Positions 3,583-26,700 of a stretch of 49,658 nucleotides of DNA are shown in pieces. The notes under the pieces are model-generated. The model made no database searches and was not told the origin of the DNA. It worked only from the letters and a program-made list of their open reading frames with translations. Origin of the DNA: a virus. The position numbers and the translations under genes are program-made. How positions within the stretch are numbered: position 1 is the first letter of the stretch; every line of letters begins with the position of its first letter. The stretch covers positions 1 through 49,658 of the IMG/VR virus record IMGVR_UViG_3300032265_000583; one strand, written 5' to 3'.

Positions 3583-3598
3583 TTCGGTTTAGAACCAT

Positions 3599-3627
3599 TT
3601 GACACCTCCTTCGGGAGGTGTTATACT
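3599..3627 (+). promoter_or_regulatory. Sigma70 promoter of the VWA gene with hairpin-forming spacer
   Basis: TTGACA at 3599-3604, a 17-base spacer, and TATACT at 3622-3627. The spacer is almost entirely an inverted repeat (see the separate entry). A strong AAGGAG site lies before the ATG at 3657. Confidence 0.85.
3602..3621 (+). repeat. Perfect inverted repeat with TTCG loop in the promoter spacer
   Basis: ACACCTCC, TTCG, GGAGGTGT: an 8-bp perfect stem closed by C-G around the very stable UUCG tetraloop. It begins inside the -35 element and ends one base before the -10. No T run follows on either strand, so it is not an ordinary intrinsic terminator. It could be an operator, or an RNA hairpin at the 3' end of the upstream transcript. 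Confidence 0.8.
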
Positions 3628-3656
3628 ATATATATAGTAACAGTTAAGGAGCAAGT

Positions 3657-6338: not shown

Positions 6339-7007
6339 ATGAATGTTCGACTACTTAGTTACAGCCAACCCACAGAAGAATTTGCAAGTATGGGCATTGC
6401 AGATGCGCAGGAACTCATTGCGTATTGCGCCCGTGTCAGCAATCCGAGCAATCAACTCAACACAGAGACATCAGACAAGCTCATCAGATACTTGGTCAAA
6501 CACCAACACTGGAGCCCACTCGAAATGGTCAGTGCCTGTATCGAAATTACAACAACAAGAGATATTGCCCGACAAATCTTGCGACACAGAAGTTTCAGTT
6601 TCCAAGAGTTCAGTCAGCGATATGCTGACCCTACTAAAGACCTGTCGTTTGTATGTAGAGAAGCACGCCTGCAAGACAATAAAAACAGACAAAACAGCAT
6701 CGCAGTGGATGATCAACTGTTACAAAATGAATGGTACAGAGCTCAACAAAGAGTTATCTATGCCGCCAAACGTGAATACGAATGGGCCATTGCTAACGGT
6801 ATAGCTAAAGAGCAGGCTCGCGCAGTATTACCGGAAGGTCTTACAGAAAGTCGCTTATATATGAATGGAACACTACGTAGTTGGATTCATTTTATTGAAT
6901 TGCGTAGTGCTAACGGCACACAGAAAGAGCACCAAGAAGTTGCTATTGCGTGTGCTCGGGCGATAGCTGAGATTTTTCCAATGACCACTGATCTTGTAGC
7001 CAAGTAA
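6339..7007 (+). CDS. thyX: Flavin-dependent thymidylate synthase ThyX
   Basis: This enzyme makes dTMP from dUMP using methylenetetrahydrofolate and FAD/NADPH. The ThyX signature RHRx7S is present: R82-H83-R84 followed by seven residues and S92, inside RHRSFSFQEFSQRY. The conserved Arg-rich C-terminal segment (ARAVLPEGLTES) is also present. Length (222 aa) is normal for the family and the protein looks intact. T4 itself uses the unrelated ThyA type; ThyX is usual in marine T4-like phages. It is the last gene of the plus-strand block, followed by a strong terminator, and its last 65 bases overlap the 3' end of the convergent glycosyltransferase gene. Confidence 0.95.
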   Translation: MNVRLLSYSQPTEEFASMGIADAQELIAYCARVSNPSNQLNTETSDKLIRYLVKHQHWSPLEMVSACIEITTTRDIARQILRHRSFSFQEFSQRYADPTKDLSFVCREARLQDNKNRQNSIAVDDQLLQNEWYRAQQRVIYAAKREYEWAIANGIAKEQARAVLPEGLTESRLYMNGTLRSWIHFIELRSANGTQKEHQEVAIACARAIAEIFPMTTDLVAK

Positions 7008-8295
7008 AATCATTTATCTTGCTCAATGCCTCCTTATTGGAGGCATTTTTTTCTCCGTACGCTTTGCCGGCGAGTGCGCCTGAGTAAGCATAAAATCCAT
7101 AAGACACAGAATCGTTAAGTGTACACCATGCATCTAATCTTGATAAAGATTCGTCATCGTTGTTTATTGTTAACTTAACACATTCTCTAAAAGCACTTCT
7201 CCATGTGCTGTAAGCATCTGTATTGAAAGCAGTAATATTACTAATATCTGACATAACTTTAAAATGTTTACTAATACTAGTAGTCATATCCGTAGTAGTT
7301 GTATCCATTTCAAGAGTTAATTTTGTTGGTAATAATTTGACGCCGCCGTATCCGTACTCTAATCCAGTTATTGGATTTTGACTTCGCCATACGTGTACAA
7401 TTTCTTTTAAAATATTACGTGCTTGAACATTATAAAAGGGAATATATTCAAAATCAAAATTAAATGATTTTTCAATTATGGCATCGGCATCTACCACCCA
7501 AAACATGTCTGTAGTAGATAGTTTTGCGGCTTCTATATGAGCTTGATGAATTCCTGTTACTCCGTGTATGCGCTTTGCTCTTGGAAAACGTTCTTTCAAT
7601 TTTTCATAATTTTGATCAGCTTGCGGTTCGTTATAGCTTATAAAGATAATATCAAACGGTTTAGGAATACTAGCCTGTACGTCTATTTCTTTTTTAGTAA
7701 CAAAAAATCGATAATTAAATTCGCGTTCTGATACTTTATTCTTTTTTGAAAATAAACAAACACCGTCGTAATATTCACCGTTTTTAAAAATATATGTTGA
7801 TGTATCATATGCTGGAGTGCGATAAGTAAAATCAAAATTATTGTTAACTATTATGTCATTCCAAATAACCCAGAATCTGTCAGTTGTAGTTTTTTCAATT
7901 GCATCTAAATAACTGTTATAATCATCTATATAAAATATTTCGTAAGGCAGTGTTATACTAGCCTGTACATCTATTTCTTTTTTGTTTATATAGAACCGAT
8001 TTTTAAGTTCTCGAGAAGATACAGTTTTTATTTTTGGATGTAAACTAACTCCATCGTAATATTCTCCGTTTTTAAAAACGTGAACATAGTCTTTGTCCCA
8101 GTCTGTCACTTGATAATTAAAATCAAATGAAGTATTAATACTTAAATCTGGCCAGACTATCCAGAAAAATTTTGTAAAAGCCCTGCGTTTAGCTTCTTCG
8201 TAAGTGTTTACTATCTTAGCTAACGGAAAACGTTCTTTTAAAATATTAAACTGTTTATGTGTTTGACTGTCAGAAATAAAAAAGATATCATACAT
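6943..8295 (-). CDS. Glycosyltransferase-like protein with two degenerate N-terminal modules (450 aa)
   Basis: Three related parts. Residues 1-115 and 116-211 are two repeats with a 96-residue period (each contains KNGEYYDGV and KKEIDVQASI). Residues 212-450 are a fuller domain starting FDIIFISYNEP and carrying the nucleotide-sugar/metal motif DAD (269-271), like the neighbouring 298-aa protein. In the two front modules the DAD position reads WPD (48-50) and WND (145-147), so they have probably lost catalysis and may bind acceptor. A role in glycosylating virion or host surface molecules is inferred. It is the last gene of the minus-strand operon and overlaps the upstream gene by 8 bases. Confidence 0.7.
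   Translation of the reverse strand: MYDIFFISDSQTHKQFNILKERFPLAKIVNTYEEAKRRAFTKFFWIVWPDLSINTSFDFNYQVTDWDKDYVHVFKNGEYYDGVSLHPKIKTVSSRELKNRFYINKKEIDVQASITLPYEIFYIDDYNSYLDAIEKTTTDRFWVIWNDIIVNNNFDFTYRTPAYDTSTYIFKNGEYYDGVCLFSKKNKVSEREFNYRFFVTKKEIDVQASIPKPFDIIFISYNEPQADQNYEKLKERFPRAKRIHGVTGIHQAHIEAAKLSTTDMFWVVDADAIIEKSFNFDFEYIPFYNVQARNILKEIVHVWRSQNPITGLEYGYGGVKLLPTKLTLEMDTTTTDMTTSISKHFKVMSDISNITAFNTDAYSTWRSAFRECVKLTINNDDESLSRLDAWCTLNDSVSYGFYAYSGALAGKAYGEKNASNKEALSKINDFTWLQDQWSLEKSQLSPEHTQ
7025..7052 (+). terminator. Rho-independent terminator after thyX
   Basis: A perfect 9-bp stem (AATGCCTCC / GGAGGCATT) with a five-base loop runs straight into seven T residues. It begins 18 bases after the thyX stop. 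It lies inside the coding region of the convergent glycosyltransferase gene. On the minus strand no T run follows, so it should act on plus-strand transcripts only. Confidence 0.9.
7666..8241 (-). repeat. Tandem 288-bp repeat inside the glycosyltransferase gene
   Basis: Two diverged direct copies with a 288-bp (96-codon) period. For example, TAGCCTGTAC occurs at 7671 and again at 7959, followed in both by a near-identical CTATTTCTTTTTT stretch. It encodes the two degenerate front modules. Confidence 0.75.
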
Positions 8296-9184
8296 AACGT
8301 TTTCTAATTATCCGTGGGCTATTGCTGTATACGGTTTTAAAGAATTGACTACCTGCGGCATCAAGATTTGCTATTTCAATTTTGCATTTATCTTGAAGTT
8401 CTTTTCCGTAAAAATTAATTTGGTTTGTTTTTTCGTCTGCTGAAGCATTTTTATAATGTTCATTCCAATAGTTAGTCAAATATTCAAAATCTCTAACATT
8501 GGCATAATCCCAGTCGGTACAATTAGTTAAAGCGGCACCTTCTCTAGCACCCAGTATACTATAAATTCCATTTTCTACATCAGCACCAACACTACACCAA
8601 ATAAGGAGTCTATGATAATTTTGCCACCAAACTGTGTTTAAATCAGAAACTTTAGCACCTTGGTCTAAGGACATTTTTACGCCTTCACGGAATCCTGCTC
8701 TCCATGCTTGAAATGGGCTGGCATTGGTAAAACTTTCACTGTAACACTCTTGAAACTGATGATACTTGTTGTCAAAACAAAATTCAACCAACCCCTTGGT
8801 ATCTGTTGGATCACTGTTTTCGTGTGTTTTCATTTCGTTAACAAATTTACGTGTCCATAATTTCAATCCACCGTTGCCGTACATAAGTCCATTGACATGT
8901 ACTTTGCCGCACCAACTAAACACATGGTTGGGTGTTAGATTTAACTTTTCAATATCTATTTCAATTTCAAGAAACTTTGGATCTATAATATTGTCAGCAT
9001 CCACAGTAACAAAATACTCAGTATCACTCAGTGCGGCGCAGGCCTTGTGTGCGGCATCACTGCCCTTAACTCCGTGTACTCGTTTTGCCCAAGGTACTTT
9101 TGCGCATAAATCCGCATAATTTTTTTCAGCATTGGACTCGTCATAACTGAGAAATATGATATCTTGTTCTATGATTTTAATCAT
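8288..9184 (-). CDS. Putative glycosyltransferase, GT-A-like (298 aa)
   Basis: It begins with a strand-rich segment (DIIFLSYDESNAEKNY), then WAKRVHGVKG, and a DAD motif (62-64) in FVTVDADNIID, where GT-A transferases bind the metal and sugar nucleotide. MYGNGGLKLW and FQAWRAGFREGVKM follow and match the last domain of the downstream 450-aa protein (YGYGGVKLLP, STWRSAFRECVKL), so the two are paralogues. No signal peptide or membrane segment is seen, suggesting a cytoplasmic enzyme. Donor and acceptor are unknown. This protein type is recurrent near tail genes of marine T4-like phages. Confidence 0.75.
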   Translation of the reverse strand: MIKIIEQDIIFLSYDESNAEKNYADLCAKVPWAKRVHGVKGSDAAHKACAALSDTEYFVTVDADNIIDPKFLEIEIDIEKLNLTPNHVFSWCGKVHVNGLMYGNGGLKLWTRKFVNEMKTHENSDPTDTKGLVEFCFDNKYHQFQECYSESFTNASPFQAWRAGFREGVKMSLDQGAKVSDLNTVWWQNYHRLLIWCSVGADVENGIYSILGAREGAALTNCTDWDYANVRDFEYLTNYWNEHYKNASADEKTNQINFYGKELQDKCKIEIANLDAAGSQFFKTVYSNSPRIIRKRYV

Positions 9185-9779
9185 TTATTTTTAATCCATA
9201 ACTATCAAAAAATCGTCTTGTTGAAATTGAAAGATTACTTATATTATCTTCTATTTTACTTTCAAAATTGTATACTAGTTTTCCTGCTTTTAATATTTCG
9301 TGTAATTTGATGTAAAAAGTTCTGACCAAAAAATCAAAATCAGTTTCTAATATAATAAAAAATACCAGGGTGCTATCATACATTCCGCCATCCAGTATTT
9401 TTCTTCCTTCGTCGGTTACATAAAATATCCATTGCCGATTTGGTAAATCCCATTCTATAATAAATTCTGTGTATTTTACAGGTGCATTGTTTATCCATTC
9501 TAGTAAACTATTTTGAAAATTAAACTCGTTATACATTTGAGGAGTTAATAACTTGTATAATATACTACCATCAAAATCAATGTGTTTGTCAAGAATACAA
9601 TCTGTTAATTTCAGTTTTCCTGCACAAATATCTCTATGCTCATCTTCTTTGATTATGGCATAATGTATAATCGTTGAATCTAAAACATTAGAAGATGAGA
9701 AAAACTTTTCAGTTTCAGGATTAAAATATGCATAATATGTATGTATTGGAGGCTCTGTATTTTTTTTAGATCTTGCCAT
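9177..9779 (-). CDS. Hypothetical protein within the glycosyltransferase operon (200 aa)
   Basis: Function not recognised. It has a basic, hydrophilic N-terminus (MARSKKNTEPP), then an aromatic-rich alpha/beta body with no DxD motif and no clear membrane segment. It overlaps the genes on both sides (8 and 14 bases), so it is translated with the transferases. It may be an accessory or acceptor-recognition protein, which is inference from context only. Confidence 0.7.
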   Translation of the reverse strand: MARSKKNTEPPIHTYYAYFNPETEKFFSSSNVLDSTIIHYAIIKEDEHRDICAGKLKLTDCILDKHIDFDGSILYKLLTPQMYNEFNFQNSLLEWINNAPVKYTEFIIEWDLPNRQWIFYVTDEGRKILDGGMYDSTLVFFIILETDFDFLVRTFYIKLHEILKAGKLVYNFESKIEDNISNLSISTRRFFDSYGLKIND

Positions 9780-10611
9780 TTGCCAAATCCTCCAATCGTT
9801 TAAGAAATCTAGGGGTAATAAAATCTTTTTCTATATAATGAAAAAGTTTACTTTGTTTGATATTTCCAACAACTAAATCGCCCTTGGTATTTAATACAGA
9901 CAATACAGTGTCCTGCCAGTTTTCACTTGGATTATCCCATCCTTGTAAATGGGATTTCATATGTATGAATTCCAAAGGACTATGTTTGTCAAATATAGTA
10001 TCTTGGCACATGAGTATTTCAATGGCAACAGCAGTTGCCAAATCTAAACTGCAAGTGTCCTGATATTCAATCGGTGCAAATCTGCTCCAACACCATTCCC
10101 AATTATTACAAACAAATTCAAGTGTTTTATAAAATTCATGAGCAGAATTAGATTTTTTAAAATAATGCAGTGCTATATACGGTTCGCTTAAATTATTGGC
10201 AATGAATGTTTTTCTATGAAATGTATCTCTTACCACTTCTAGTTTATAATTTTTAATACGAGAACATATTTTTAAATTATAATTACCGCAATAATCCCAC
10301 CAAGTCGATATATCTTCAAGCATTAACATATCAGCATCTAATACCATTGTTTCTTCGTAGGGACTAACGTGATATAATTTCCACCTATGCTCAGTTGCAT
10401 ACCTACTATTTACAGAGCCGTCTGTCCAAGGTGTAGGTATAATTTTATCAAACACAGATTTGTATTTTTTAGGAACTTTATCAGATGTGACAATTGATAC
10501 TGCCGAAACAGAAGTTTGACTGTATTTTATGCTAAGTGCAAGTGCATATGCCTGTTCTAAATAATTAACAGAATCTGTATTCTGCGCAAAAATTAAAAAT
10601 CCTTTAGACAC
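9766..10611 (-). CDS. Putative GT8-like glycosyltransferase (about 281 aa)
   Basis: The motif VLDADML (DAD at residues 92-94 from the chosen start) and the preceding pattern of a Rossmann-like start, SIVTSDKVP, FDKIIPTPW and HRWKLYHVSPYEETM match the layout of GT8/glycogenin-like GT-A transferases. The GTG at 10611 is preferred because GGAGG stands five bases before it and the product then starts like its paralogue upstream. An ATG at 10623 in frame would add four residues. The C-terminal part has HMKSHLQGW, where GT8-like enzymes carry an HxxGxxKPW-like block. Acceptor unknown. Confidence 0.75.
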   Translation of the reverse strand: MSKGFLIFAQNTDSVNYLEQAYALALSIKYSQTSVSAVSIVTSDKVPKKYKSVFDKIIPTPWTDGSVNSRYATEHRWKLYHVSPYEETMVLDADMLMLEDISTWWDYCGNYNLKICSRIKNYKLEVVRDTFHRKTFIANNLSEPYIALHYFKKSNSAHEFYKTLEFVCNNWEWCWSRFAPIEYQDTCSLDLATAVAIEILMCQDTIFDKHSPLEFIHMKSHLQGWDNPSENWQDTVLSVLNTKGDLVVGNIKQSKLFHYIEKDFITPRFLKRLEDLANGKI

Positions 10612-11452
10612 CCAGACCTCCATCTATACATCTACATAAACTAGGTTTATTCATCACATGGATATCTATTCCTTGTGTTTTTGCTAAAATATACTCCCCA
10701 ATGTGATTTTCTTTTTCAATTAAAAACTTTAATTTATCACTATTAATATTTACTAACAAATCTTTGTCTGTAGAATAAGTCATGGTTCCTGGTAAATCTA
10801 TGGCAAATTCTCCATTAGTTTTTCCATTCATAATATGTATAGCAATACTAAATGCGTAATCGTTTCGATATGCACTGGCAACTATGGAATATAAGGTTCT
10901 AAAATAGGTCCAATTAGATTTAATATAGGCTATTAGATTAAAAAAAGAATCCATAATTTCGTTTTTTGTAAAGATGAATACAGTAGCCCAATAAAAAGGA
11001 ATACTCCATTGGCTTATACGGGTAAATTCTGCTGTAGAGCGCCAATGCGCAAGATCCATACTTTTACTGTAAATTTGAAAATCATAATGGTTATCGAATG
11101 CTGGTTTCAATACATTGGAATTAATAATGTAATCGCTATCAATAACTAAGGTCTTATCGTATGGTGTTAAATCATATACGCGATCTCTGGTGAAATTTTT
11201 CCACTCGATAGTCTTGCTTGCCAATGCGCCGTCGCTGATTTTTTTATATTGATTATTTTCTGAATAGCCTATAGGTATAATTTGATCAAACACATGATCA
11301 GGGTAACCTTTTTTAAGCCAGTCGGCACTGTCTGTAATAATACTTACAGGAATATCCAAGTGTTCTTTTAATTTTTTAGCCGAGAACACTGCCATCTTAA
11401 CATAATCTATATTAGCACTGTTCTGTGCAAAAATTACAGCACCGTTAGTCAT
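10604..11452 (-). CDS. Putative glycosyltransferase, GT-A-like (282 aa)
   Basis: It starts GAVIFAQNSANIDYVKMA, parallel to the downstream paralogue (FLIFAQNTDSVNYLEQA). It carries VIDSDYII with the DxD motif at 105-107, after a YDLTPYDKTL segment equivalent to YHVSPYEETM in that paralogue. The two genes are therefore diverged duplicates. The second half is aromatic-rich and may bind the acceptor. The start overlaps the stop of the 116-aa gene (ATGA). No membrane segment is seen. Confidence 0.75.
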   Translation of the reverse strand: MTNGAVIFAQNSANIDYVKMAVFSAKKLKEHLDIPVSIITDSADWLKKGYPDHVFDQIIPIGYSENNQYKKISDGALASKTIEWKNFTRDRVYDLTPYDKTLVIDSDYIINSNVLKPAFDNHYDFQIYSKSMDLAHWRSTAEFTRISQWSIPFYWATVFIFTKNEIMDSFFNLIAYIKSNWTYFRTLYSIVASAYRNDYAFSIAIHIMNGKTNGEFAIDLPGTMTYSTDKDLLVNINSDKLKFLIEKENHIGEYILAKTQGIDIHVMNKPSLCRCIDGGLGV

Positions 11453-11799
11453 AGGTCAACTATATCAGCAATCTTGCGTTTGCTTTTTAAACTAGCATAC
11501 TTGACAGCATACTCGTTGGTAGCTTCAAAATAAATTGCGATAATGCTGTCAAAAAATTCTTGGACATCAGTAACAATTATGGGAAAATTATTGGAATCTA
11601 CAAAAGCAACATCCGTAGTTTGGCCAAGTTCTAAAATTGTTTTTGTAAGATTTATTAGCTCAGGAGTGATTCGAAAAGTAGCACCATTGATATAGTGTAC
11701 TAATTTTTGATTGTATTCTTCTAAAACTATTCGTCTTTGATTAGATAAAGTTGCCATATAGTTGGCAACTTCAAAAGCCTTTTCAATTCTCTCATCCAT
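11449..11799 (-). CDS. Conserved hypothetical protein heading the glycosyltransferase operon (116 aa)
   Basis: Function not recognised. A mostly helical small protein (ERIEKAFEVANYMATLSNQR at the start) with a short beta segment (DVAFVDSNNFPIIVTD) and a helical, basic end. It is the first gene behind the sigma70-like promoter and is coupled by ATGA to the first transferase. Small helical proteins of this kind recur in this position in related phages. A regulatory or chaperone role would be a guess. Confidence 0.7.
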   Translation of the reverse strand: MDERIEKAFEVANYMATLSNQRRIVLEEYNQKLVHYINGATFRITPELINLTKTILELGQTTDVAFVDSNNFPIIVTDVQEFFDSIIAIYFEATNEYAVKYASLKSKRKIADIVDL

Positions 11800-12827: not shown

Positions 12828-12835
12828 TATTTATA
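12828..12835 (-). promoter_or_regulatory. Late promoter TATAAATA
   Basis: An exact T4 late-promoter octamer on the minus strand, 20 nt before the ATG at 12807. The octamer overlaps the 3' end of the preceding fibre gene. Confidence 0.75.
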
Positions 12836-14810
12836 GTATTACACATTCAACTAGTTTTACACCGACATCATCGTTTGATTCTAATGCTATGGCAAATTGT
12901 CTAATTGTTAAATCTTCTAAAGGATCAACGCGAGCAACACCTGCATGTCCTGCAATTAAAGCATCTCCTTTTTTAACTGGATATTCAACTTTAACAGGAA
13001 CACGACCTTTTAGAGCAATATAAGTTCCGCCTTCCAATGTATCATTCATTTTAAACGCAGGATTAGCACTTACGACTCCAATTGCATTTGAATGAAGTGT
13101 TGCGGCTGTAACTTCTTTTTCTCCGCCTACCATTATAACTGTGCCAACTTCGTACTCTGCATCTGCAAGATATTTTTCTGCTAAGTCGGCATAGTAAGCA
13201 CTTGTTGAAGTACCGTATAGTACACCAAATCGATTACTTGTTTGCCCAATATCTCCAACTCCGTTAGTACCGCTTTTCTGAATTGATGCAACTACTACTG
13301 CATTAGCTGTAATATTTTGACTAGAGTCACGTGCCGCAATAGTATTTGCTAGAGAGCTAGTAACTGCCGATACATATAGATTTCCATCAAGTTGTAGTTG
13401 ACTTGCTTTTTGTGCAATTCCTGTTACATTACCTGTTAAACTTGCAGTAATTACGTTAGCTGTAAAGTTTCCTGACGAATCTCTTGCTACAATTGTATTA
13501 TTAGCAGTAACAGATGCTGTCAAATAACTGGCTCCCACTTGTAATGCATTAGATTGTTGAGCTGTTCCAGCCATATAGTTAACAGCGATGTTTGCACTGG
13601 CATCTCTAACTACAATTGTGCTGGCTACTGAACTAACATTAGTAGAAATATACGAAGCACCGTACTTTAATGTGTCTGCTTGACTAACTGTTGCTGTGAT
13701 GTTTCTTGCTGTGAAATCTCCGTTACTATCTCGAGCTACAACGCTAGTTTTATTAGTGGTAGATGGTAATACGGTATTTGTTTGAACGTACTGAGCGCCG
13801 ACTAGTAGTGCATCTGTTTGTTGCGATGTGCCATAGTAGTATCCTGCATAAACGTTTTTCCATTGTAAGGATACAGATCCTAAATTATTAGTGGCGGTTA
13901 ACGATCCTGGCAATACATCGTTACCCAATACTTTCATTGGATATGCGGTTGAGCTATCTGACAATTTAGTTTGGAATACAATTGGAGTACTATTAATCAT
14001 CGACTGAATAGTCGGTGTAGTTGCACCGTCGTTAAATACTGCTAATTTAGCAGTTGGGTTACCAACAGTATATCCAGTATCTGAAAAATTAACTAATGTA
14101 CTAAAACTGGCATTTGAAGAACGTATATAATTGCTGGCTGTTAACCCGCCTAAACGATCCGAGTTAGTAGCAGTTCCATAAAATCTATGACTTGATGTTG
14201 TCTGGCCTTCTTGTGCATCGTTATTTGTATAACATAAAGTTATACCTTGACGAATTTTAGTAAATCCTGGAATAGCATTAGCAGTATTATCTAGTGTAAA
14301 ATCAGCGTCTGCACTAATTGTAAAAACTACAGTTCCGTTATCAATAGCTTCAATTATAGCATGATTTCCGCCAGTTGCATCTCTTACGCTAACACTTTGC
14401 ATTTGTGTAATAGCGGCACCGGCAACTGCTTGTGGTCCAATTAACTGAAATGTAGTTCCGTCCCATGCTTTAAGCTGTTTACTGCTTGTATCAAACCAAA
14501 AATCTCCAGTACTTAATCCAGTAGGGGCAGATACACTAACTTCAGCACCGCCTGCACTACGGAATTTATTACCGTCATAAAACTTTAATTTTTTATTCCC
14601 GCTATCAAACCAAATTTGTCCGGATAATGGATTAGGGGGTTGTACAGAATTGGAAAAATTTTCTAACAGGTGTACAAAATTTTCATTCTGTGCTTGTCCA
14701 TATCCTGCATAACTTTTTCCAATTAACTTGATGTCAAGAGAAGTGTCAACAGTACCATCGGCAACCGTCTTTAATAAAGTTCCATTCCATCTGTTAATTG
14801 AGTATGACAT
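12831..14810 (-). CDS. Tail fibre protein with peptidase-G2-like C-terminal domain (659 aa)
   Basis: Residues 1-130 are the N-terminal domain shared by four proteins here (DGTVDTSLDIKLIGKSYAGYG, LLENFSN, GQIWFDS, GDFWFDT). A second shared region of about 100 residues ends in FYGTATNSDRLGG. The middle has several imperfect repeats of about 40-50 residues with the theme IxARDSSGNFTANxIxA, typical of trimeric fibre shafts. The last 120 residues begin YADLAEKYLADAEYEVGTV and resemble the peptidase-G2-like self-processing domain of some fibre proteins, possibly an intramolecular chaperone. A late motif lies 24 nt upstream. Confidence 0.8.
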   Translation of the reverse strand: MSYSINRWNGTLLKTVADGTVDTSLDIKLIGKSYAGYGQAQNENFVHLLENFSNSVQPPNPLSGQIWFDSGNKKLKFYDGNKFRSAGGAEVSVSAPTGLSTGDFWFDTSSKQLKAWDGTTFQLIGPQAVAGAAITQMQSVSVRDATGGNHAIIEAIDNGTVVFTISADADFTLDNTANAIPGFTKIRQGITLCYTNNDAQEGQTTSSHRFYGTATNSDRLGGLTASNYIRSSNASFSTLVNFSDTGYTVGNPTAKLAVFNDGATTPTIQSMINSTPIVFQTKLSDSSTAYPMKVLGNDVLPGSLTATNNLGSVSLQWKNVYAGYYYGTSQQTDALLVGAQYVQTNTVLPSTTNKTSVVARDSNGDFTARNITATVSQADTLKYGASYISTNVSSVASTIVVRDASANIAVNYMAGTAQQSNALQVGASYLTASVTANNTIVARDSSGNFTANVITASLTGNVTGIAQKASQLQLDGNLYVSAVTSSLANTIAARDSSQNITANAVVVASIQKSGTNGVGDIGQTSNRFGVLYGTSTSAYYADLAEKYLADAEYEVGTVIMVGGEKEVTAATLHSNAIGVVSANPAFKMNDTLEGGTYIALKGRVPVKVEYPVKKGDALIAGHAGVARVDPLEDLTIRQFAIALESNDDVGVKLVECVIL

Positions 14811-14852: not shown

Positions 14853-15497
14853 TTACTTAGTAGCGTGCCAAGCGGCTAATTTTGCCAGCTGATCGTCATC
14901 ATATCCGTATAATTCTGGATACAAGCTAATCCAAACATGATCCACTTCAGGGACCATTGCTTTAACTCGTAAAGTTGCACGGCCACGTTTACCCAATTGG
15001 AATGTTACTGTAGATCCGTTGGGTGCAGAAGCTTTGTAAGTAGCAGGATCGCCGCCATTGATGTTGATAGGAAAATCTAATTTGCCCATGTTTTTAATCT
15101 GTATTTCTGTCACATCCGACCAATTTTTACCATGCTCGTCTACAATTCGTGGAATCAGCGTTATCAAGTTGTCTATGCCTACAATAGCATTTCTGGTGTT
15201 ATCGATATAAGTATTTGGGCCAAAATCCACAACTGCTTTTCTTAACTTTATTTTATTTTCAGCTGTCCAAAATACTAACTGGCCAGGGTTAATGATACTC
15301 TCAGCAATATTGTCGTAATACTCTTTGCTAATTTGACCTAGATAATGCGAGCCCATGTTACTATCAGAGTGTACTACGTCTTCAAACGGAGCAATTGCGC
15401 CGTAAAGACCTGTAATTAATCTATTAATAGTAGAAAAATTAATTGAATACTGTTTATCAGCAGTCCACCCTGTTTGGATTGTTATTTCATCTGTCAT
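14853..15497 (-). CDS. Hypothetical protein coupled to the U32-like gene (214 aa)
   Basis: Function not recognised. The N-terminal half is helical (FSTINRLITGLYGAIAPFED, then YYDNIAESIINPGQL). The second half looks like a beta sandwich (MGKLDFPININGGDP, GSTVTFQLGKRGRATLRVK) that could be an Ig-like or carbohydrate-binding fold. Its ATG overlaps the stop of the U32-like gene (ATGA), so the two are made together, and both sit between fibre genes. It may be a virion component or the partner or substrate of the U32-like protein. Confidence 0.7.
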   Translation of the reverse strand: MTDEITIQTGWTADKQYSINFSTINRLITGLYGAIAPFEDVVHSDSNMGSHYLGQISKEYYDNIAESIINPGQLVFWTAENKIKLRKAVVDFGPNTYIDNTRNAIVGIDNLITLIPRIVDEHGKNWSDVTEIQIKNMGKLDFPININGGDPATYKASAPNGSTVTFQLGKRGRATLRVKAMVPEVDHVWISLYPELYGYDDDQLAKLAAWHATK

Positions 15498-16492
15498 ACA
15501 AAAACCCTTGTCATTTTATCATATATTTTATCGCAGTGGTTACACTCTGTACCACACACTGTTTTACAATTATTAGTTAATTCATTGAATCCAAGATCTG
15601 CTAAATCATTTGCCAATACATTTGTAAGGAACATTGTACCGGTGGTACTTAATAAATCTCCAAACTTTATATTTCCACTACGCTTCTGATAAGCATCAAT
15701 TACTCTAAACCAGCGATTTACAGGAAAACCTCGTCCAGCAATTTTAATAACATCAACCAGTCCGTCAAATTTGCTCAGATCGTTTGGCAATGTAAAAGCT
15801 GTCTTTAACCACTCTGCTGGATTCTCTTTAAAATAACTTACACAGCCAAGTCGATTGTGTACATTATCTGTAATATCTCGCTTATCGTGCATTTTCACTT
15901 GGCTAATGATTAAATCATCCCATTGCTTCCATTTGCAATCAACTATGCATCCTTCATTAACTAACATAGTTATCTTAATACCATGCTGGTTGCCGTAATT
16001 TCTCATTTTTATCAGTGTATCTAAATCTCTGTTCAAGCTACGGTCAACAATGATACTGGTAACACCCAGCACTTCATGCATAAAAATAAAATCTTTTAAT
16101 GTTCTTACTAAATTGTTCACGCTGTTCTTTACTTCTATCGTAGGTTTATTAGCTTGGAAATCTTTAGTAACGCCAGCTCTTAATAGATACGTGTTATTTA
16201 AAGTTATCATATCAACATCTATGTTCTTAACATGTTCTATAAGTTCTGGAACTTGCCCATAAAATTCATTAGAATATAAACTTGGATTAACAAGATAGTG
16301 CATTTTGATACCATACATTTTTCTAATGGCGTACAATTCCTCGAACATTTCAGTGCCGTTAAATATACTTCTGGCACTTCCAAATTTATTGTCGCTAAAA
16401 TATATGTCCGAGATACTTTCAATATCTAGACTGGGCAATGCTTCAAGCATACCCTGTGTGTATGGTATACTAAATTTATGGAGTGTAGACAT
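15494..16492 (-). CDS. U32 peptidase-like (UbiU/RlhA-type) Cys-rich protein (332 aa)
   Basis: The start at 16492 is chosen because AGGA lies six bases before it. An ATG at 16543 would overlap the fibre gene by 68 bases. The order of features matches U32-family proteins: a TIM-barrel-like series (DISDIYFSD, IKMHYLVNPSLYSNEF, VDMITLNN, KPTIEVKNSVNN, ITSIIVDRSLNRDLDT-like), then the family hallmark region EGCIVDC (C182, C186). It ends in a Cys cluster, C309-x3-C313-x3-C317-x2-C320, suggesting an Fe-S or metal site. Known U32 proteins are linked to oxygen-independent hydroxylation of ubiquinone or RNA and to tRNA modification, not proven proteolysis. The substrate here is unknown; a modifier of virion proteins is one option. 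Confidence 0.65.
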   Translation of the reverse strand: MSTLHKFSIPYTQGMLEALPSLDIESISDIYFSDNKFGSARSIFNGTEMFEELYAIRKMYGIKMHYLVNPSLYSNEFYGQVPELIEHVKNIDVDMITLNNTYLLRAGVTKDFQANKPTIEVKNSVNNLVRTLKDFIFMHEVLGVTSIIVDRSLNRDLDTLIKMRNYGNQHGIKITMLVNEGCIVDCKWKQWDDLIISQVKMHDKRDITDNVHNRLGCVSYFKENPAEWLKTAFTLPNDLSKFDGLVDVIKIAGRGFPVNRWFRVIDAYQKRSGNIKFGDLLSTTGTMFLTNVLANDLADLGFNELTNNCKTVCGTECNHCDKIYDKMTRVFV

Positions 16493-19262
16493 TGTTTGTC
16501 CTACTTGCAATGCCGATCCATCCGGCTGTAATACTAGTTCCATGATACCAGTGTTCGGCTCCGGCGGTAGTAAGTGTTAGATTAAACCATCCATAATAAC
16601 CGCTATTTCTATCATATGTCAATGGGGCTACAGAAACACCCCAAGTTTGTTGTCCCATACCGTAATATTCAATACGAGCATCATAAATTCGTGTTAAACT
16701 TGGAGCTACCCCAAACTCATAGTTACCTTTCCAAGTCAAGTCAGCTGGGTTGTTGCTTAGTCCTACAAACCCTGGAATATTAACTGTCAGCGTAACACTA
16801 CCTAGAGTATTTCCAGTAAATGCTGTAGCACTTGTATAGTTGCCGCCAGTTGAACTTGACCAGCCTGCGCCTACATTAGCACTAACATACCCAGCTGAAT
16901 ATCCGCTGCCTCCGCTGGAGCTTAGGTACATGTCAATCGAACCAATAATAGTTTTTACAATATTTTGTAGTTGTGCTTGCGGGCTTGCTGTTGGCGCTGG
17001 TATAGTTGGCTTGTTGGCTAAATCGTTATAACTACCACTTGTTGCCACTGCTGGCAATGTAGAACCAAAGTTTGCATCGGTAAGAATTTTTGCCCATGGA
17101 CTCCAAGTATTTCCAGTATCTCTTCGACTGCGAATATAATTATCTGCATGAGAACCAGTACTGCCTGACCACCCTACTAGTACTTCACCACCGCCATTAC
17201 CGCCTAGTGTAATTACATTACCATAAGCGGTTGGATAACCGTTATTATAAACACTGCGCAGTGTCAGTGCTTGTCCCGGTTCTGCAACACCATTTGATTC
17301 AGCAGTAATAGTACCAAGATTTCTTATATTAGAAGACGATCCCTGAGCATTACCAGTAATATTACCTACTACATCACCTGTTAGATTGCCAACAAATGAA
17401 TTTGAAGTTACTGTTGATAATCCAGAAATAGTAGCAGATGTGCTGCCTAATGATATTGTTGTTGATCCAAAGGTAATACTACTATTAGATAATTTGTTAT
17501 TAGCAATACTTCCAGCTAACATGGTGTTAGTAACAGTGCCTGTATCAGTAACATATACGCCATTGGTAACTGTTCCAGCATTACCTGATACATTACCAGT
17601 TACATTGCCAGTCACGTTACCAGTTAAGTTACCTGTTACATTACCAACCACTGGTCCGGTATGTGTTCCTCGACTATCACCAGTTACGTTACCAGTTATA
17701 TTACCAATTACATTTCCGGTGTGTAATCCTGTAGAATCTCCAGTTACATTACCAGTTAAATTACCAGTTACATTACCTGTTACATTGCCCGTTACTGGAC
17801 CAGTATGTGTTCCTGCGGTATTACCAGTTACATTACCAGTTACATTACCAATTACTGGACCAGTATGTGTTCCTGCGGTATTACCAGTTACATTACCAGT
17901 TACATTACCTGTGACACTTCCAAATACATTACCTGTATGAAAACCCGTTGTATTGCCAGTTACATTACCAGTTACAGGACCAAGGTGCGTTCCGGTTGTT
18001 GTTCCGGTTAAATTTCCAGTTACATTACCAGTTACATTTCCTGAAATACTAATATTGTATGTAGCAAAATTATCATAAACAAAATTATTAGGTTTTTGAC
18101 CTACTTGATCCCAGCGAATATAATTAGCCACATTTGCCGTATTTGCTAAAACTGCAACGTCTGCTAATAGTGTATGATCTGATTCTATTGAAGAATCTGC
18201 TTTACCAATAAATCTATTTGCTATCAAATTTCCACTAGAATTTCTAGCGGCAATAGTATTTGCACTGGCAGCGGTGCTTGCTGTTAAATAGTTTCCAGAT
18301 AAGTTTAACGAATCTGCTTTTTGTGCGGTAGAATACACATATCCAGCATATACATTATTAAACTGTGCTAAGGTACTGCCTAAATTAGTTCCAAAATTAG
18401 TTCCTGGTAGTATATTTGATCCTACTAACTGGATTGGGGTGTTAACAACAGATCCGCTAGTAGTCTGAAAATTTATAGTAGTACCGCTGTTATTTTTAAT
18501 AACTGGAATGCCATTTGTGTTTTTAATAGTAAGTGCTGTACCAATGTTAACTCCATCATTATCGACATTAATACTAGTTAAGAATGTTGGGTTAGTTACT
18601 GGTGCATAAAAATTAGGAGGATTATTTCCTAAATTATCTGCGTTTGTTGTAGTTCCATATATTTTATAAGATGAATTAAATGTTACACCTTGAAAAATTG
18701 TCGGAAAACCTTCGATAGAATTTTTAGGTGTGAAATTTAAATTAGAATTTATAACAAAGATTCTTTTATTATCAGCCCACGCTTCTTGAATTGCATGACG
18801 ATTACTTTGACTATCCTCTATCTCTACACTTTTCATCTGTGTTACACCATAACCGGTAACACTTTGAGGTCCGATTAATGTATAGCCGCCGCCATCGAAT
18901 ACTTTTAATTGATTGGAAATTTCATCATACCACATGTCTCCTAATTGAGGATTACTCGGAGGGTTAGGATTACTTGGAGTTGTTACATTATTAATTGCAA
19001 GAGTTTTCCAAATTGCACCGTCATATACATTTAATTTTAATTTATCGGTACCAGAATTAAACCATGCCTGACCTTTGATAGGTTTAGGAGGAGGAGATAT
19101 GTTAGCAAAATGTTCTAACAACCATAAAAAGTTATCGTTTTGTTTTTCACCATAACCAGCATAATTTTTACCAATTAGAGTAATATCTAAAATGGTATTA
19201 ATAGTGCCGTCTGCAACTAGTGCAAATGATTCTCCGTTAAATTTAGTTATGTTATATGACAT
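16476..19262 (-). CDS. Tail fibre protein with GNVTGN repeat shaft and knob-like end (928 aa)
   Basis: Residues 1-135 are the shared N-terminal attachment domain (DGTINTILDITLIGKNYAGYG, GQAWFNS, GDMWYDE), followed by the second shared region (FKxIYGTTTNADNLG-like). Residues about 405-565 consist of GNVTGN/GTHTGPVxGN repeats, partly as exact 20-residue units, a likely trimeric beta or polyglycine-type shaft. Further on, a pyocin-knob-like block (NTWSPWAKILTDANF) precedes a C-terminal beta domain of about 170 residues, probably the receptor-binding tip. It overlaps the U32-like start by 17 bases. No clear late motif was found in the 33-base gap upstream, so it may be read from the preceding fibre genes. 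Confidence 0.8.
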   Translation of the reverse strand: MSYNITKFNGESFALVADGTINTILDITLIGKNYAGYGEKQNDNFLWLLEHFANISPPPKPIKGQAWFNSGTDKLKLNVYDGAIWKTLAINNVTTPSNPNPPSNPQLGDMWYDEISNQLKVFDGGGYTLIGPQSVTGYGVTQMKSVEIEDSQSNRHAIQEAWADNKRIFVINSNLNFTPKNSIEGFPTIFQGVTFNSSYKIYGTTTNADNLGNNPPNFYAPVTNPTFLTSINVDNDGVNIGTALTIKNTNGIPVIKNNSGTTINFQTTSGSVVNTPIQLVGSNILPGTNFGTNLGSTLAQFNNVYAGYVYSTAQKADSLNLSGNYLTASTAASANTIAARNSSGNLIANRFIGKADSSIESDHTLLADVAVLANTANVANYIRWDQVGQKPNNFVYDNFATYNISISGNVTGNVTGNLTGTTTGTHLGPVTGNVTGNTTGFHTGNVFGSVTGNVTGNVTGNTAGTHTGPVIGNVTGNVTGNTAGTHTGPVTGNVTGNVTGNLTGNVTGDSTGLHTGNVIGNITGNVTGDSRGTHTGPVVGNVTGNLTGNVTGNVTGNVSGNAGTVTNGVYVTDTGTVTNTMLAGSIANNKLSNSSITFGSTTISLGSTSATISGLSTVTSNSFVGNLTGDVVGNITGNAQGSSSNIRNLGTITAESNGVAEPGQALTLRSVYNNGYPTAYGNVITLGGNGGGEVLVGWSGSTGSHADNYIRSRRDTGNTWSPWAKILTDANFGSTLPAVATSGSYNDLANKPTIPAPTASPQAQLQNIVKTIIGSIDMYLSSSGGSGYSAGYVSANVGAGWSSSTGGNYTSATAFTGNTLGSVTLTVNIPGFVGLSNNPADLTWKGNYEFGVAPSLTRIYDARIEYYGMGQQTWGVSVAPLTYDRNSGYYGWFNLTLTTAGAEHWYHGTSITAGWIGIASRTNNVYTP
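17574..18042 (-). repeat. Tandem repeats coding for GNVTGN units in the fibre shaft
   Basis: A 12-base theme (ATTACCAGTTAC on the plus strand) repeated many times. Within it is a higher-order 60-base unit that is nearly identical at 17761-17820 and 17821-17880 and continues in part at 17881. In frame, the units encode GNVTGN and GTHTGPV blocks. Confidence 0.85.
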
Positions 19263-19295: not shown

Positions 19296-20948
19296 TTATA
19301 AATTAAATTGATAAGTCCATATTCCTGATAACAATTGAAACTGTCTAATAGTTACTGCTCCGCCATCTGTACAAACTACTCGACAAATTGTATCTGGTTG
19401 ATGCTCTGCTGATGGGAATACTTTACTCAAATAGGTAGTTGCTATCTGTGAATTAGTTAGCCCAGTCGTAGTTAACGACAACGCAACAGATGCTAGTTGT
19501 ATTTTTTTATCAACATAATCTTTATTTGCCGCATCTGTTAAATTTTGTGGGGATGCTAAACTAGTAATAGTAGCAGAACTAACATCAACACTGCCAGTTC
19601 CTTTGGGTTTTAAAACAACATTACCGTTGCCCATAACTGGATTTACATAACTTATAATATTAGTTGCAATACCAATATTTCCTGCTACTACACTGGTCAA
19701 TGCTCCAATTGTTTGTAATCCTGGGGCTGCAATTATTGAACTTCCTAAGCTACTGGCTGTAATAACATCAAGGTTGTTAATCTTATAAGTTTTTCCTGAT
19801 GCTAAATTTATATGCTCGCTACTAGTCCAAGAATCAGTACTATCAATCCAGTTAAAAGTCTTGTCTGTTGATCCTTTTAATGTAATTCCGCCACCGTCAG
19901 CTAACACATCAGACGGTGAAGCAATTTTACCTAATTCAATATTTTTATCAGTAACTGTTAATGTTGTTGAATTAACTGTAAGAGTGCTACCTTTAACTGT
20001 TAAATTTCCTTGAACAGTAAGATCGCCATTTACATCAAGAGTAGTTTCTGGATTCTGAGTTAAAATTCCTACTTTACTAGTAGACCCATTAATAAAGAAT
20101 GCAATTGGTTGGCTCGAAGCAGTCTTTGTTTGAATTTGAAAATTTTGATCTGCTCTATTCGATTTAATGTTAAAAAGAGAAGATGTTACATACAGCTCGC
20201 TGTCAGAGCCTGTTCCTAATTTTAACGGGGTCGAATTCTGTATGCTAAGAGTGCCTGTACTTTGACTGTTATCATTAGTTGATACAAAATTTTCTGCTGT
20301 TTTTAAAACACCTTCGGCAGATACCAATGCATTTGCTTTAGTTGCAACTGTGTCAAATACAAAATTTGAAAGCGAACTAGCAGTGAAACCAACATTTAAA
20401 ATTGCAGGCATTCCGCTAATTTGTTCTTTAGGAGTAAATGAAACTTTACTGAACACTCCTAATAATGTTTGCGCTACAAACAGATAAACAACAGTCCTAG
20501 AAATGTTGTTTGAATCTAAAATATCTTCAACAGTAAAACCTGATAATCCTTGCTGAGCCGAGTATATCGGACCCGCAAGCATAGTTGCAATGCCGTCATT
20601 AAAATATAATTGCTCACGAACATTATCAATCCATAAATCGCCAGCGGCTAAATTGCTTGGAGGAGTACTCGATGTTATGGTGCCGCCACTGACAACAAAT
20701 TGCATTCCGTTATAAACTTTTAAACGATTTTCTGCGGTGTCATACCACAATTGTCCTTGTATTGGATTATTGGGCTCCACTGTATTAGAAAAGTTTTCTA
20801 GTAATCTAACAAAATTGTCGTTAATAAACACACCAAATCCAGAAAAGTTTTTTCCAATTAGTGTTAAATCTGTTGCAAGTTGATCAATAGTACCGTCTAC
20901 AACACTAGTTAATGCCGAGCCGTCAGTTTTTAATATAGTATAGCTCAT
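19296..20948 (-). CDS. Tail fibre protein (550 aa)
   Basis: The shared N-terminal domain is clear (DGTIDQLATDLTLIGKNFSG, LLENFSN, GQLWYDT, GDLWIDN), then the second shared region with FVAQTLLGVFSKVSFTPKE. The C-terminal part contains a patterned beta stretch (TTLDVNGDLTVQGNLTVKGS, LTVTDKNIELGKIASP) and NLTDAANKDYVDKKI, typical of T4-like long-fibre or gp36-type proteins. The last 80 residues form a small beta end domain. Its ATG overlaps the previous stop by one base (TAATG), so it is made together with the 714-aa fibre. Confidence 0.8.
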   Translation of the reverse strand: MSYTILKTDGSALTSVVDGTIDQLATDLTLIGKNFSGFGVFINDNFVRLLENFSNTVEPNNPIQGQLWYDTAENRLKVYNGMQFVVSGGTITSSTPPSNLAAGDLWIDNVREQLYFNDGIATMLAGPIYSAQQGLSGFTVEDILDSNNISRTVVYLFVAQTLLGVFSKVSFTPKEQISGMPAILNVGFTASSLSNFVFDTVATKANALVSAEGVLKTAENFVSTNDNSQSTGTLSIQNSTPLKLGTGSDSELYVTSSLFNIKSNRADQNFQIQTKTASSQPIAFFINGSTSKVGILTQNPETTLDVNGDLTVQGNLTVKGSTLTVNSTTLTVTDKNIELGKIASPSDVLADGGGITLKGSTDKTFNWIDSTDSWTSSEHINLASGKTYKINNLDVITASSLGSSIIAAPGLQTIGALTSVVAGNIGIATNIISYVNPVMGNGNVVLKPKGTGSVDVSSATITSLASPQNLTDAANKDYVDKKIQLASVALSLTTTGLTNSQIATTYLSKVFPSAEHQPDTICRVVCTDGGAVTIRQFQLLSGIWTYQFNL

Positions 20949-23095: not shown

Positions 23096-23704
23096 TTAAA
23101 CTCCTACTAAACCAGTTAAACTTTGAATTCTTACTGTATAATCAATTTGTATCAATCGGTTTAAACTTTTTAATACAGGATGAAAAATGACATGGGTTAA
23201 TAACAAAGTAGAACCGTCTGCGTTTCTACTTTGCAGTCCTAGTTCGTCAAAAACAAAAGTTGATTGATTATCTGATACCGTGTCGTATGCACTTTGTCCG
23301 TTAGGTTCGCCGTAGTCTAATAAACAAGTGACAAAAATATCAGTATAATTAGTGCCGGTAACATGCCTTGATTCTATAAAGTTTCTTGTAGGGTCAAGAT
23401 TAGTACTAGAATTATTATTAACTACTTTATTATAAGTTTGATTATACAAACTTGCATTTGTACCGCTGGTATTTGGAGTTAAATATGTAATAATTCCTGT
23501 TGGATCTATAGCGGTTCCGCCATTTCCAAATGCCATTGTGTAGATAAATCCCTGGCCGCTATTGGCCATACTTTCTGCTAGAGCAATACTAATATTTTCG
23601 TAGTGAATTGCGTTGCGTTTATCAATATAAACTTCAGCGGAAAGGGGGTCATATATTTTAATATGACCCTCTATATGGATTCCAGTTGCGTCTTTAGTCT
23701 GCAT
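23096..23704 (-). CDS. Putative baseplate/virion structural protein (202 aa)
   Basis: Function not firmly recognised. The protein starts with a short beta segment (TGIHIEGHIKIYDP), then a helix (ISIALAESMANSGQGFIYTM), and ends in beta strands (LTHVIFHPVLKSLNRLIQIDYT). This pattern recurs as a conserved structural protein between the giant baseplate-associated protein and the fibres in T4-like marine phages. It is in the position where T4 has gp8, but no gp8 similarity is visible. A late motif lies 20 nt upstream. It stands three bases from the next fibre gene. Confidence 0.65.
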   Translation of the reverse strand: MQTKDATGIHIEGHIKIYDPLSAEVYIDKRNAIHYENISIALAESMANSGQGFIYTMAFGNGGTAIDPTGIITYLTPNTSGTNASLYNQTYNKVVNNNSSTNLDPTRNFIESRHVTGTNYTDIFVTCLLDYGEPNGQSAYDTVSDNQSTFVFDELGLQSRNADGSTLLLTHVIFHPVLKSLNRLIQIDYTVRIQSLTGLVGV

Positions 23705-23760: not shown

Positions 23761-26700
23761 TTAGTTCTTATAGTCTGTGTACCAAATTCCGGGACTTGCT
23801 TTTAAAAATTCAGCAATTTTACTCGAATCATTTTGAATATTTACGGTACTATCCCAAGCTATACCAGTACGTTTAACAACAGTTACCTGTGTGCCAGTGC
23901 TTAGTAAATGGGTTAATCGAAGTTGGTTCGATGTTCCGTTAACAGCAAACTCAGAATCTAACTGCACATCTCCGTCTGGACTATGTGGTGCTTTATTAAC
24001 ATTGTGCATTTTGTAAGGTTTCTTCTTTAACCTAATATTACCTACAAAAAACTCCCAGTTAGAAACATCGTCATTGAAATTTAATCCGCTGGTGTGAGCT
24101 GTCGTACATCTATATGTATAACTTCCAACATTTACAATAATTCCAATAGAATATACAACATTTGAAGCCCATACTGCACCGTCATTATAGCCGCCAATAA
24201 ACACTTCTATGTCGTCTGACTGGCCATACGAACTTGGAATTGTGCTACTAAATCCTGAGCTATATGTCCACGAACCATTTGATTTAGTTGGTGGAAAACC
24301 TAAATTAACAAAATGACTACCGTCAGAAATAACTTGTTCTACAATAGAGCTTTCTGTATAAGGAACAGTTTCAGTAGGTCCAATATCCTGAACTGCTGTT
24401 CCACTAGAATAAATTGTCTTAACACCTGTTCCAAGAGTACCACGTCGTAATCTACTTAATGTATTTCCAGATTTACTAAAATATTCAATTCGTTCTCCGT
24501 TAATTTCAACAACTCCTGGTAGGTTTTTAGATGGATTAGGTGTATCAAAATTAGTCGCATCTTCAACAACAATGTTTGTATCATTCCATTTTAAATCTTG
24601 AGTTAATTTAGTTCTTTTATTTAAACTTAAACGTTTAAAGTGTGTTCTGTTTAACATATCTTTAAATTGTTGATACGCAATACCAGATGTTAACACATTA
24701 TTTCCAAATGTAATAACTGTAATTGCTTGATTGCTAGTTGGAGCAGTTGCTAACTGAATTGATTTTCTATCATCAATAACTTTAAAATCTATGCTTGGAA
24801 CTAATAATGTATTATCTTTTATAACCCATATATAGTTATCGTCAATTACTGAACGGTCAAGTTGGATTAAGCCTGATTTAATTTCTGAATAGTAATAAAA
24901 TTCTAATGTATCAGGAGTTAGCGATATATTGGATGTAACATTAACTTCTGAACGTTTCATATCCAATGTTGCATGATTAAACGAGCTCACTACTTCAACA
25001 ATATTGTTAGTGCTATAAACTGATTTGAATGCAATTTCTTGTGTTAATGGATTATAAAAATATCCTTCATTTTCAGTAATACTTACAATTAACTGAGTAT
25101 TCTTGTACTTTGAATAAGCGGCTTTTGTAATTTTAACAGTAATGCCAGATAAATCAATTGTGTAATCTTTTCCTAATGATAGTTTAACACCGTTGGCCAG
25201 TACATTAATATTATTTAATTCTACAGAATCTGGAAGAACTTTTGACGGATTAAGTGTATAACTTAATCTATTTTTTTCTATAGTAAAATAATTGTCATTT
25301 GGACCTTTTAATATAGCCTGGTCAACTCTCACTAGCATACTTGATTCAAGTGGATATGTGTTTCCAACAACTGTACTTAATTTAAAAGTCTTATCTACAT
25401 TATTTGTAGCAATTCTTTCAGTATTAGTAATTGCAAAAGTTTGTTGATTTCCGCTAACAACAATAAAATTAATAAGACTACCAGATGCTGGCGGAGCAGT
25501 AAATCTAAATCCAACTGCATTAACAAAATCATAGGATGCATCTGTTTTGAATACTTCAGGAGTTACAACTATACCGTCTACATAAATTAATGTTGTAAGT
25601 GTTGGTAACCAGTGTGCTTTAGTAATAAATTCTATCGTAGTGCCATCACCAACAAAATAATCAAGGTCTAATAAATTCGAACCGTTGAATCCAATGTTAA
25701 AAATGCTTACAATTTGATTGGCAGTTGGTGGTGTTACAAAAGTTATTAATTTATTTTCATAGTTAATCGAATAATCAACTCCCAATGTTTTAATTGAATT
25801 TCCAACCTTAACAATAACTGCCTTGCTACTATTTGGTTGCTGAGTCATTGTAAATGCCTGCTGTGAACCAGTAGCTACAAAATTGTCTACTTTCATAGAT
25901 GATGATCCAGAACTTGGTCTATCGTATACTTTAATAGCAACTGCATCAACTACTTGTCCTGGAATAATTTCTTCCGGTGCAGGGCTGGATGTAGGAGTCA
26001 CAAAACCATCGCCGTCAACTAATATATCATCGGCCGCAATGCCAATTGCTGTAGTATATGATAAATTTCCTCCAATTAATGAAGTATCGTAATCTGTCTC
26101 AGCTGGAGCAATAGATCCATCGCTAGTGCTCTTTCTAAAGATAAATTTATCACCATCAACCACTGTAAATGTGTTAGGAAGTGTAATTGTAAATCCTGTA
26201 GTTCCGTTATACACAGGAGTTGTTATTATGGCATTATCATTTGTCTGAATATGCGGGCCACTATGTATTCCGTAATACGGATCGTCTAGTCTTTCAGGAT
26301 TAATAGTACCTGTTATGTTTATTGTTACACCTGTTGGTACAGGGTCTACTAATACAAGCGTTCCGTTGGCATTGATAGTAACATCTGTAGGTTCTAACAA
26401 TGTTCTTGTGAATGTTAAATTAATATTTGGTAATAAATTTGCATAAACTAGCGAATTAAGTTTAACTGTTGTACTATTGACTATCTCAGTAACTGTTGCA
26501 TTATATAGCAATGCTTTAATTGTTGAACAAGCAACTGCATCTCCTACATGAACTGTTGAAGAATCAGCTACAGTCAAATATGTACTTCCTGAAAATCCAA
26601 ATGTAAAAATTAATTGTCCGCTTGGAATACTATCAGGAGCTTTGTTCAACTTAACAGTAGTCGAATCTACTACTGAAGCAACTGTATGGACAGAACTTCC

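Follow-up and report, generated by a model that had tools for sequence, protein, structure and literature searches.

A diverged seven-cysteine U32-superfamily protein, encoded with a fibre tip in a phage fibre operon, as a candidate fibre-modifying enzyme

UbiU and UbiV are 4Fe-4S proteins of O2-independent hydroxylation (PMC6747719), TrhP hydroxylates tRNA, and the position targeted by the characterised U32 proteins that act on nucleic acid, RlhA included as it is cited in PMC6747719, is C5 of U or C (PMC6599085). Canonical U32 proteins use four cysteines, and the spacing CX6CX15CX3/4C recurs in most families (PMC6747719). TrhP carries a characteristic C-terminal motif or domain after its U32 domain, and TrhP1 and TrhP2, which share an operon with the catechol-O-methyltransferase-like TrmR, act with it in forming mo5U34 (PMC6599085). 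In RB69-like phages a U32 gene lies next to a thymidylate-synthase-like gene whose product has been described as a 5-hydroxy-dCMP synthase (PMC13390438). The hydroxylation of RNA bases and ubiquinone is what this enzyme family has been known for until now; the U32 gene described here lies in a fibre operon, a new setting for the family.

The window, the whole stretch of 49,658 bases of the virus record that was analysed, is assigned from its sequence to a jumbo T4-superfamily myophage, of which it would be a fragment, given that baseplate, tail and late-sigma genes were detected in it and that the nearest relatives of its gp6-like baseplate protein are those of Phosso, SCTP-2, Atu_ph07 and RaK2. 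The initial annotation placed a cysteine-rich U32-like gene at 15494-16492, between fibre genes and overlapping the upstream one. The gene is genuine and lies on the minus strand, where it encodes a protein of 332 residues identified by its open frame, conservation, AF2 fold and profile matches; the plus strand of the span has many stops and no long frame. Translation is assigned to the ATG at 16492, a start common to nearly all relatives and directly preceded by a purine-rich stretch, with an alternative ATG upstream at 16543. The overlap is likewise real: the upstream fibre ORF (16476-19262) shares 17 nt at its 3' end with the U32 gene, and a second overlap of 4 nt joins the U32 gene to the following gene (14853-15497). 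As to its position, in related contigs that are long enough to show it, U32 and the 214-aa gene stand in this order between two fibre genes. The frame is not a chance one, since homologues of 71-90% identity are encoded on 25 other viral contigs and, relative to the nearest copy (L001:5733-6731), dN is 0.056 and dS 1.43; the gene is under strong purifying selection. Between the same two contigs the fibre gene behind U32 is near-identical (dS 0.02), and this disparity with the U32 dS of 1.43 is a sign that the segment around U32 has been exchanged by recombination.

Assignment to the U32 superfamily does not come from the Pfam score, as PF01136 gives the window protein 13.3 bits, below the gathering cut-off of 22.4; a search of the whole record with PF01136 at E 0.001 returned nothing and left this one sub-threshold U32 gene. 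It comes from a joint phage profile, a bridge through the RB69 family and the predicted fold. RB69ORF050c, a distant homologue (about 23% identity), clears the Pfam U32 cut-off at 42.2 bits, and PHROG 5757, labelled 'peptidase', matches the window protein at E 1e-5. With hhalign, the window family matches the RB69 family over nearly its full length (probability 96.5%) and the cyanophage family with a probability of 99%. Taken singly against the E. coli UbiU/UbiV/RlhA/TrhP set, the window, cyanophage and RB69 families reach probabilities of 55%, 9% and 93%, and the combined phage alignment reaches 97%. The AF2 model, built from 70 sequences (pLDDT 80, pTM 0.83), contains eight strands, which alternate with helices, and its best Foldseek match in the PDB is the U32 protein Mk0906 (5d88; E 1.7e-7, probability 1.00, TM 0.67 on the target), the best match among viral models being an RB69-type 'peptidase'. 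The likeness to a U32 barrel first noticed in the sequence is thus borne out by both structure and profile, and the protein is firmly predicted to be a genuine, highly diverged (beta/alpha)8 barrel of this superfamily. By sequence search, PDB chains gave no meaningful match for the window protein or the RB69 homologue, NCBIfam gave none for the window protein, and the cyanophage-type domain found no relative in a collection of bacterial and archaeal genomes; the joint alignment of the three phage families contained no segment of sufficient conservation to serve as a query there.

The cysteines set the protein apart from its cellular relatives. There are seven and no others (C182, C186, C217, C309, C313, C317 and C320), in the pattern C-x3-C-x30-C-x91-C-x3-C-x3-C-x2-C, the first three belonging to the barrel and the last four to the C-terminal tail. 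The EGCxxxDC region of the initial annotation is EGCIVDC, residues 180-186 (15935-15955, minus strand), and the proposed C-terminal cluster is present as C309-x3-C313-x3-C317-x2-C320 (15533-15568, minus strand) and is kept in the window and cyanophage families. All seven cysteines are invariant within the window family, and each can be matched in two distant phage families. Among 70 aligned homologues from three phage lineages, six cysteines are invariant, together with N179, E180, R155, K250, G253 and R254; the six include C182 and C186 of EGCIVDC and the third barrel cysteine, C217 (codon 15842-15844, minus strand), and C309 is found in 70 of 70, with its spacing shifted by one residue in the RB69 family. 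Conservation thus extends to every cysteine that had been singled out beforehand (C182, C186, C309, C313, C317 and C320). In the hhalign alignment EGCIVDC coincides with the canonical strand-plus-Cys region and is the positional equivalent of the first cysteine pair of canonical U32 proteins, while KIAGR, residues 250-254 (15731-15745, minus strand), aligns with the KIEGR of UbiU, RlhA and TrhP, a motif that UbiV does not share.

E. coli TrhP (YegQ), RlhA and UbiU/UbiV have in common with the window protein a U32 barrel and barrel cysteines at the corresponding place. Unlike them, the window protein does not have the canonical four-cysteine spacing, CX6CX15CX3/4C, and it carries the extra C-terminal four-cysteine cluster. 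It also has no counterpart of the C-terminal domains of TrhP and RlhA, ending 12 residues after C320, and the E. coli profile match covers the barrel only. UbiU and UbiV form a heterodimer encoded by an adjacent gene pair, with spacings CX6CX16CX38C and CXnCX12CX3C, whereas the window has a single U32 gene of other spacing. Given the sub-threshold Pfam score and the non-canonical cysteine spacing, the protein is best classed by sequence as a separate seven-cysteine phage branch of U32 and not as UbiU, TrhP or RlhA. Three barrel and four C-terminal cysteines could possibly hold one or two Fe-S clusters; since the cysteine-bearing loops of the AF2 model are of low confidence, their grouping into clusters cannot be read from it.

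The best annotated relatives of the window protein are the RB69ORF050c family of T4-like phages (PHROG 5757; L026:5905-7074 and L029-L039). At 19-23% identity they share the barrel, seven equivalent cysteines and K-x-x-G-R, but differ in an x10 insert in the C182-C186 loop (x3 in the window), in extra cysteines and in greater length. Their setting also differs, being no fibre region but a cluster for the arabinosyl-5-hydroxycytosine modification of DNA, where the gene has arabinose genes on one side and the thymidylate-synthase-like gene for 5-hodCMP synthase on the other (11 of 11 contigs). The RB69-type protein could supply an oxygen-insertion or accessory step of 5-hydroxycytosine synthesis. 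For the label of the phage AlbertHofmann homologue, 'enzyme involved in UDP-arabinose biosynthesis', no stated basis was found in the literature consulted.

The cyanophage type (L028:5671-7347; L040-L119; L120:7142-8707, the last being PSSM4_035) corresponds to T4-GC 354 (P-SSM4, P-HM2) and to PHROG 1458 and 36869, is present in at least 123 phage records and is annotated there as 'hypothetical' or 'unknown function'. Like the window protein it has a homologous U32 domain (25-28% identity) with the same seven cysteines and lies near virion or fibre genes; unlike it, the domain is fused to a C-terminal Methyltransf_24 domain in 80 of 80 loci and is followed not by p214, the 214-aa protein of the window, but by halogenases and 2OG oxygenases. 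The gene lies within three genes of one recurring virion-region gene in 67 of 74 loci, and a 2OG oxygenase or Trp halogenase follows within five genes in 62 of 79. The fibre region of S-SM1, the phage of Sullivan et al. (PMC3037559), has no T4-GC 354 gene, and the virion proteome of that study is therefore uninformative on whether a U32 protein enters the virion.

In the window the U32 gene is the middle member of a three-gene module, all on the minus strand. The first gene encodes the fibre F928 (16476-19262), whose last 165 residues (16476-16973) form a Tyr/Trp-rich tip domain, and the third encodes p214 (14853-15497), which AF2 models as an all-beta protein. F928 also includes a long tract of four-residue GNVT-type repeats, mirrored on the plus strand by a spurious frame at 17386-17940. 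The module is flanked by the fibre genes F550 upstream (19296-20948) and F659 downstream (12831-14810). For comparison, 80 sister loci were taken out of more than 600 through a conserved gene that precedes the fibre genes (window 23096-23704). Their order is gA202-F714-F550-F659-F314-s116-GT1-GT2, with further genes beyond, and in most of them F550 and F659 are neighbours separated by some 25-50 nt; in the window clade F928-U32-p214 is inserted at precisely this junction, where the sister loci have no F928.

The three genes travel together. The tip domain is present in every U32 locus that covers the site and in 0 of 80 sister loci, among which L168 is likely to be a U32-type contig that has been cut short. 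Among viral contigs, 25 carry the tip domain, 24 of them with U32 and the 25th cut at its end, and 26 carry p214, 24 with U32 and the other two being contig-end fragments. Tip domain, U32 and p214 are never found apart in viral contigs where contig ends permit testing, and on this co-occurrence they are one inherited unit. Nevertheless, the tip domain is unique to the U32 clade and a single acquisition fits the data, which lowers the strength of the linkage: the co-occurrence may reflect one ancestral event, and would then be largely one evolutionary observation and not 25 independent ones. On the F550 tree up to 5 changes are needed to account for the module, but the test does not reject a single U32 clade (p-AU 0.185); several independent gains were for this reason not accepted. 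When 50,697 phage records were searched, nothing matched the tip domain, and p214 gave no more than three hits, all weak and partial (E 0.04 or worse); p214 matched no family, and its model (pLDDT 90) has no fold match below E 0.001. In the last 160 residues Tyr and Trp together make up 9-16% of F928 homologues, as against 3-7% of the other fibres of the window, and the tip holds invariant W, Y and H residues. By analogy, such a tip fits the preference of known U32 hydroxylases for aromatic rings; it would fit a carbohydrate-binding tip equally.

Putative hydroxylases behind fibre genes are a recurring arrangement, given that in two sister loci (L177:16324-19064 and L184:16379-20608) one or two Pfam-confirmed 2OG-Fe(II) oxygenases begin, with overlap, at the stop of a fibre-region gene of 723 aa and 1036 aa respectively, and that S-SM1 has three 2OG oxygenases and a 'leprecan' gene behind its fibre genes. 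In the window clade this slot is occupied by U32. The likeness is one of position, directly after fibre-region genes, and of putative activity; the 2OG-Fe(II) oxygenases are unrelated to U32, being double-stranded beta-helix enzymes that depend on O2 and Fe(II).

Among the three roles envisaged beforehand, the linkage within the module favours modification of the fibre, and together with the insertion into the fibre operon, the tail-to-head overlaps, the parallel of the 2OG oxygenases, the place of the cyanophage fusion near virion or fibre genes and the aromatic tip it leads us to infer, with an even balance of confidence and doubt, that U32 is a fibre-dedicated Fe-S enzyme, probably an O2-independent hydroxylase, of the co-encoded F928 tip. 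The F928-U32-p214 module would be an accessory unit among the fibre genes of a jumbo myophage of the T4 superfamily. With its seven conserved cysteines the diverged barrel would hold one or more Fe-S clusters, and it would, by analogy with other U32 enzymes, hydroxylate the tip without O2, the residues modified being possibly its conserved aromatics. Modification could then tune receptor binding or contribute to fibre maturation, and p214 may be a virion partner, a co-substrate or an assembly factor. A more specific version, in which the Fe-S enzyme hydroxylates tip aromatics (for example Tyr to DOPA) and three phage lineages have put a single seven-cysteine branch to use in both fibre and DNA base chemistry, is speculative and on balance doubtful.

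The same barrel could act on nucleic acid, hydroxylating C5 of pyrimidines in tRNA, rRNA or the precursors of phage DNA. There is precedent, as C5 of U or C is the position hydroxylated by the characterised nucleic-acid U32 proteins (PMC6599085; for RlhA, as it is cited in PMC6747719), and the RB69-type U32 gene stands beside the 5-hodCMP synthase gene in all 11 contigs of its type (PMC13390438). The cyanophage U32-methyltransferase fusion, furthermore, recalls TrhP1/TrhP2 with TrmR (PMC6599085), an analogy of hydroxylation followed by methylation that would suit an aromatic residue no less than a base. However, the U32 gene of the window clade belongs to a fibre operon and passes down together with a fibre tip, and a search for thymidylate-synthase-type genes (PF00303) in 11 sister contigs, fragments of at most 98 kb, came back empty. 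A nucleic-acid substrate, the strongest of the rivals, is therefore unlikely for this clade, though it deserves serious weight.

Fibre-assembly chaperones such as T4 gp38 lie directly behind the fibre gene, and U32, placed directly behind F928 and strictly linked to one tip domain, has the gene order expected of one; this raises the possibility that the barrel is catalytically inert, a virion part or a folding chaperone of the F928 tip in which the cysteines hold a structural metal. This is rather improbable, given that core U32 residues (KIxGR, the strand cysteines and R155) are kept across three otherwise dissimilar lineages and that U32 is far more conserved across relatives than the fibre (71-90% identity against about 45-60% for most), whereas a chaperone would co-evolve with its fibre. 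It is less probable still that U32 serves the synthesis of a small molecule or of a precursor of sugars, for instance for a downstream glycosyltransferase cassette, and modifies no protein. Glycosyltransferase-like genes do lie downstream in many of these phages and the RB69-type gene is within an arabinose-nucleotide cluster, but several U32 loci have no such cassette and most sister loci have the cassette but no U32; as each occurs without the other, cassette and U32 are independent.

The U32 family itself is already known; what is new is the seven-cysteine branch, its 'hypothetical' cyanophage members and its packaging with a fibre tip, of none of which an account was found in the literature searched. 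The family is thereby extended to a phage branch that had been hidden in cyanophages under an uninformative label, and for RB69-like phages, whose U32 gene neighbours that of 5-hydroxycytosine synthesis, a direct hypothesis is gained. We know of no U32 protein that hydroxylates proteins. If the fibre is the substrate, U32 chemistry would extend to proteins, and host recognition would depend on an enzymatic modification that is invisible to sequence-based host prediction. If aromatic residues of the tip are indeed hydroxylated, this would be the first protein-acting U32 hydroxylase, and the fibre tip would be packaged with its own modifying enzyme.

Other features of the window were also recorded. 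Downstream of the fibres, 6943-11799 (minus strand) is a cassette of glycosyltransferase-like genes with DxD-like motifs; some U32 loci have it and others do not, and where it is missing F659 is shortened and F314 is lost. In the tail region a single open frame of 5207 codons with a GTG start spans 23761-39384 (minus strand). At 2482-4841 (plus strand) an AAA ATPase lies beside a DUF2201 metallopeptidase/VWA-like protein, an arrangement of the MoxR-VWA type, and the latter protein carries the PHROGs label HNH endonuclease.
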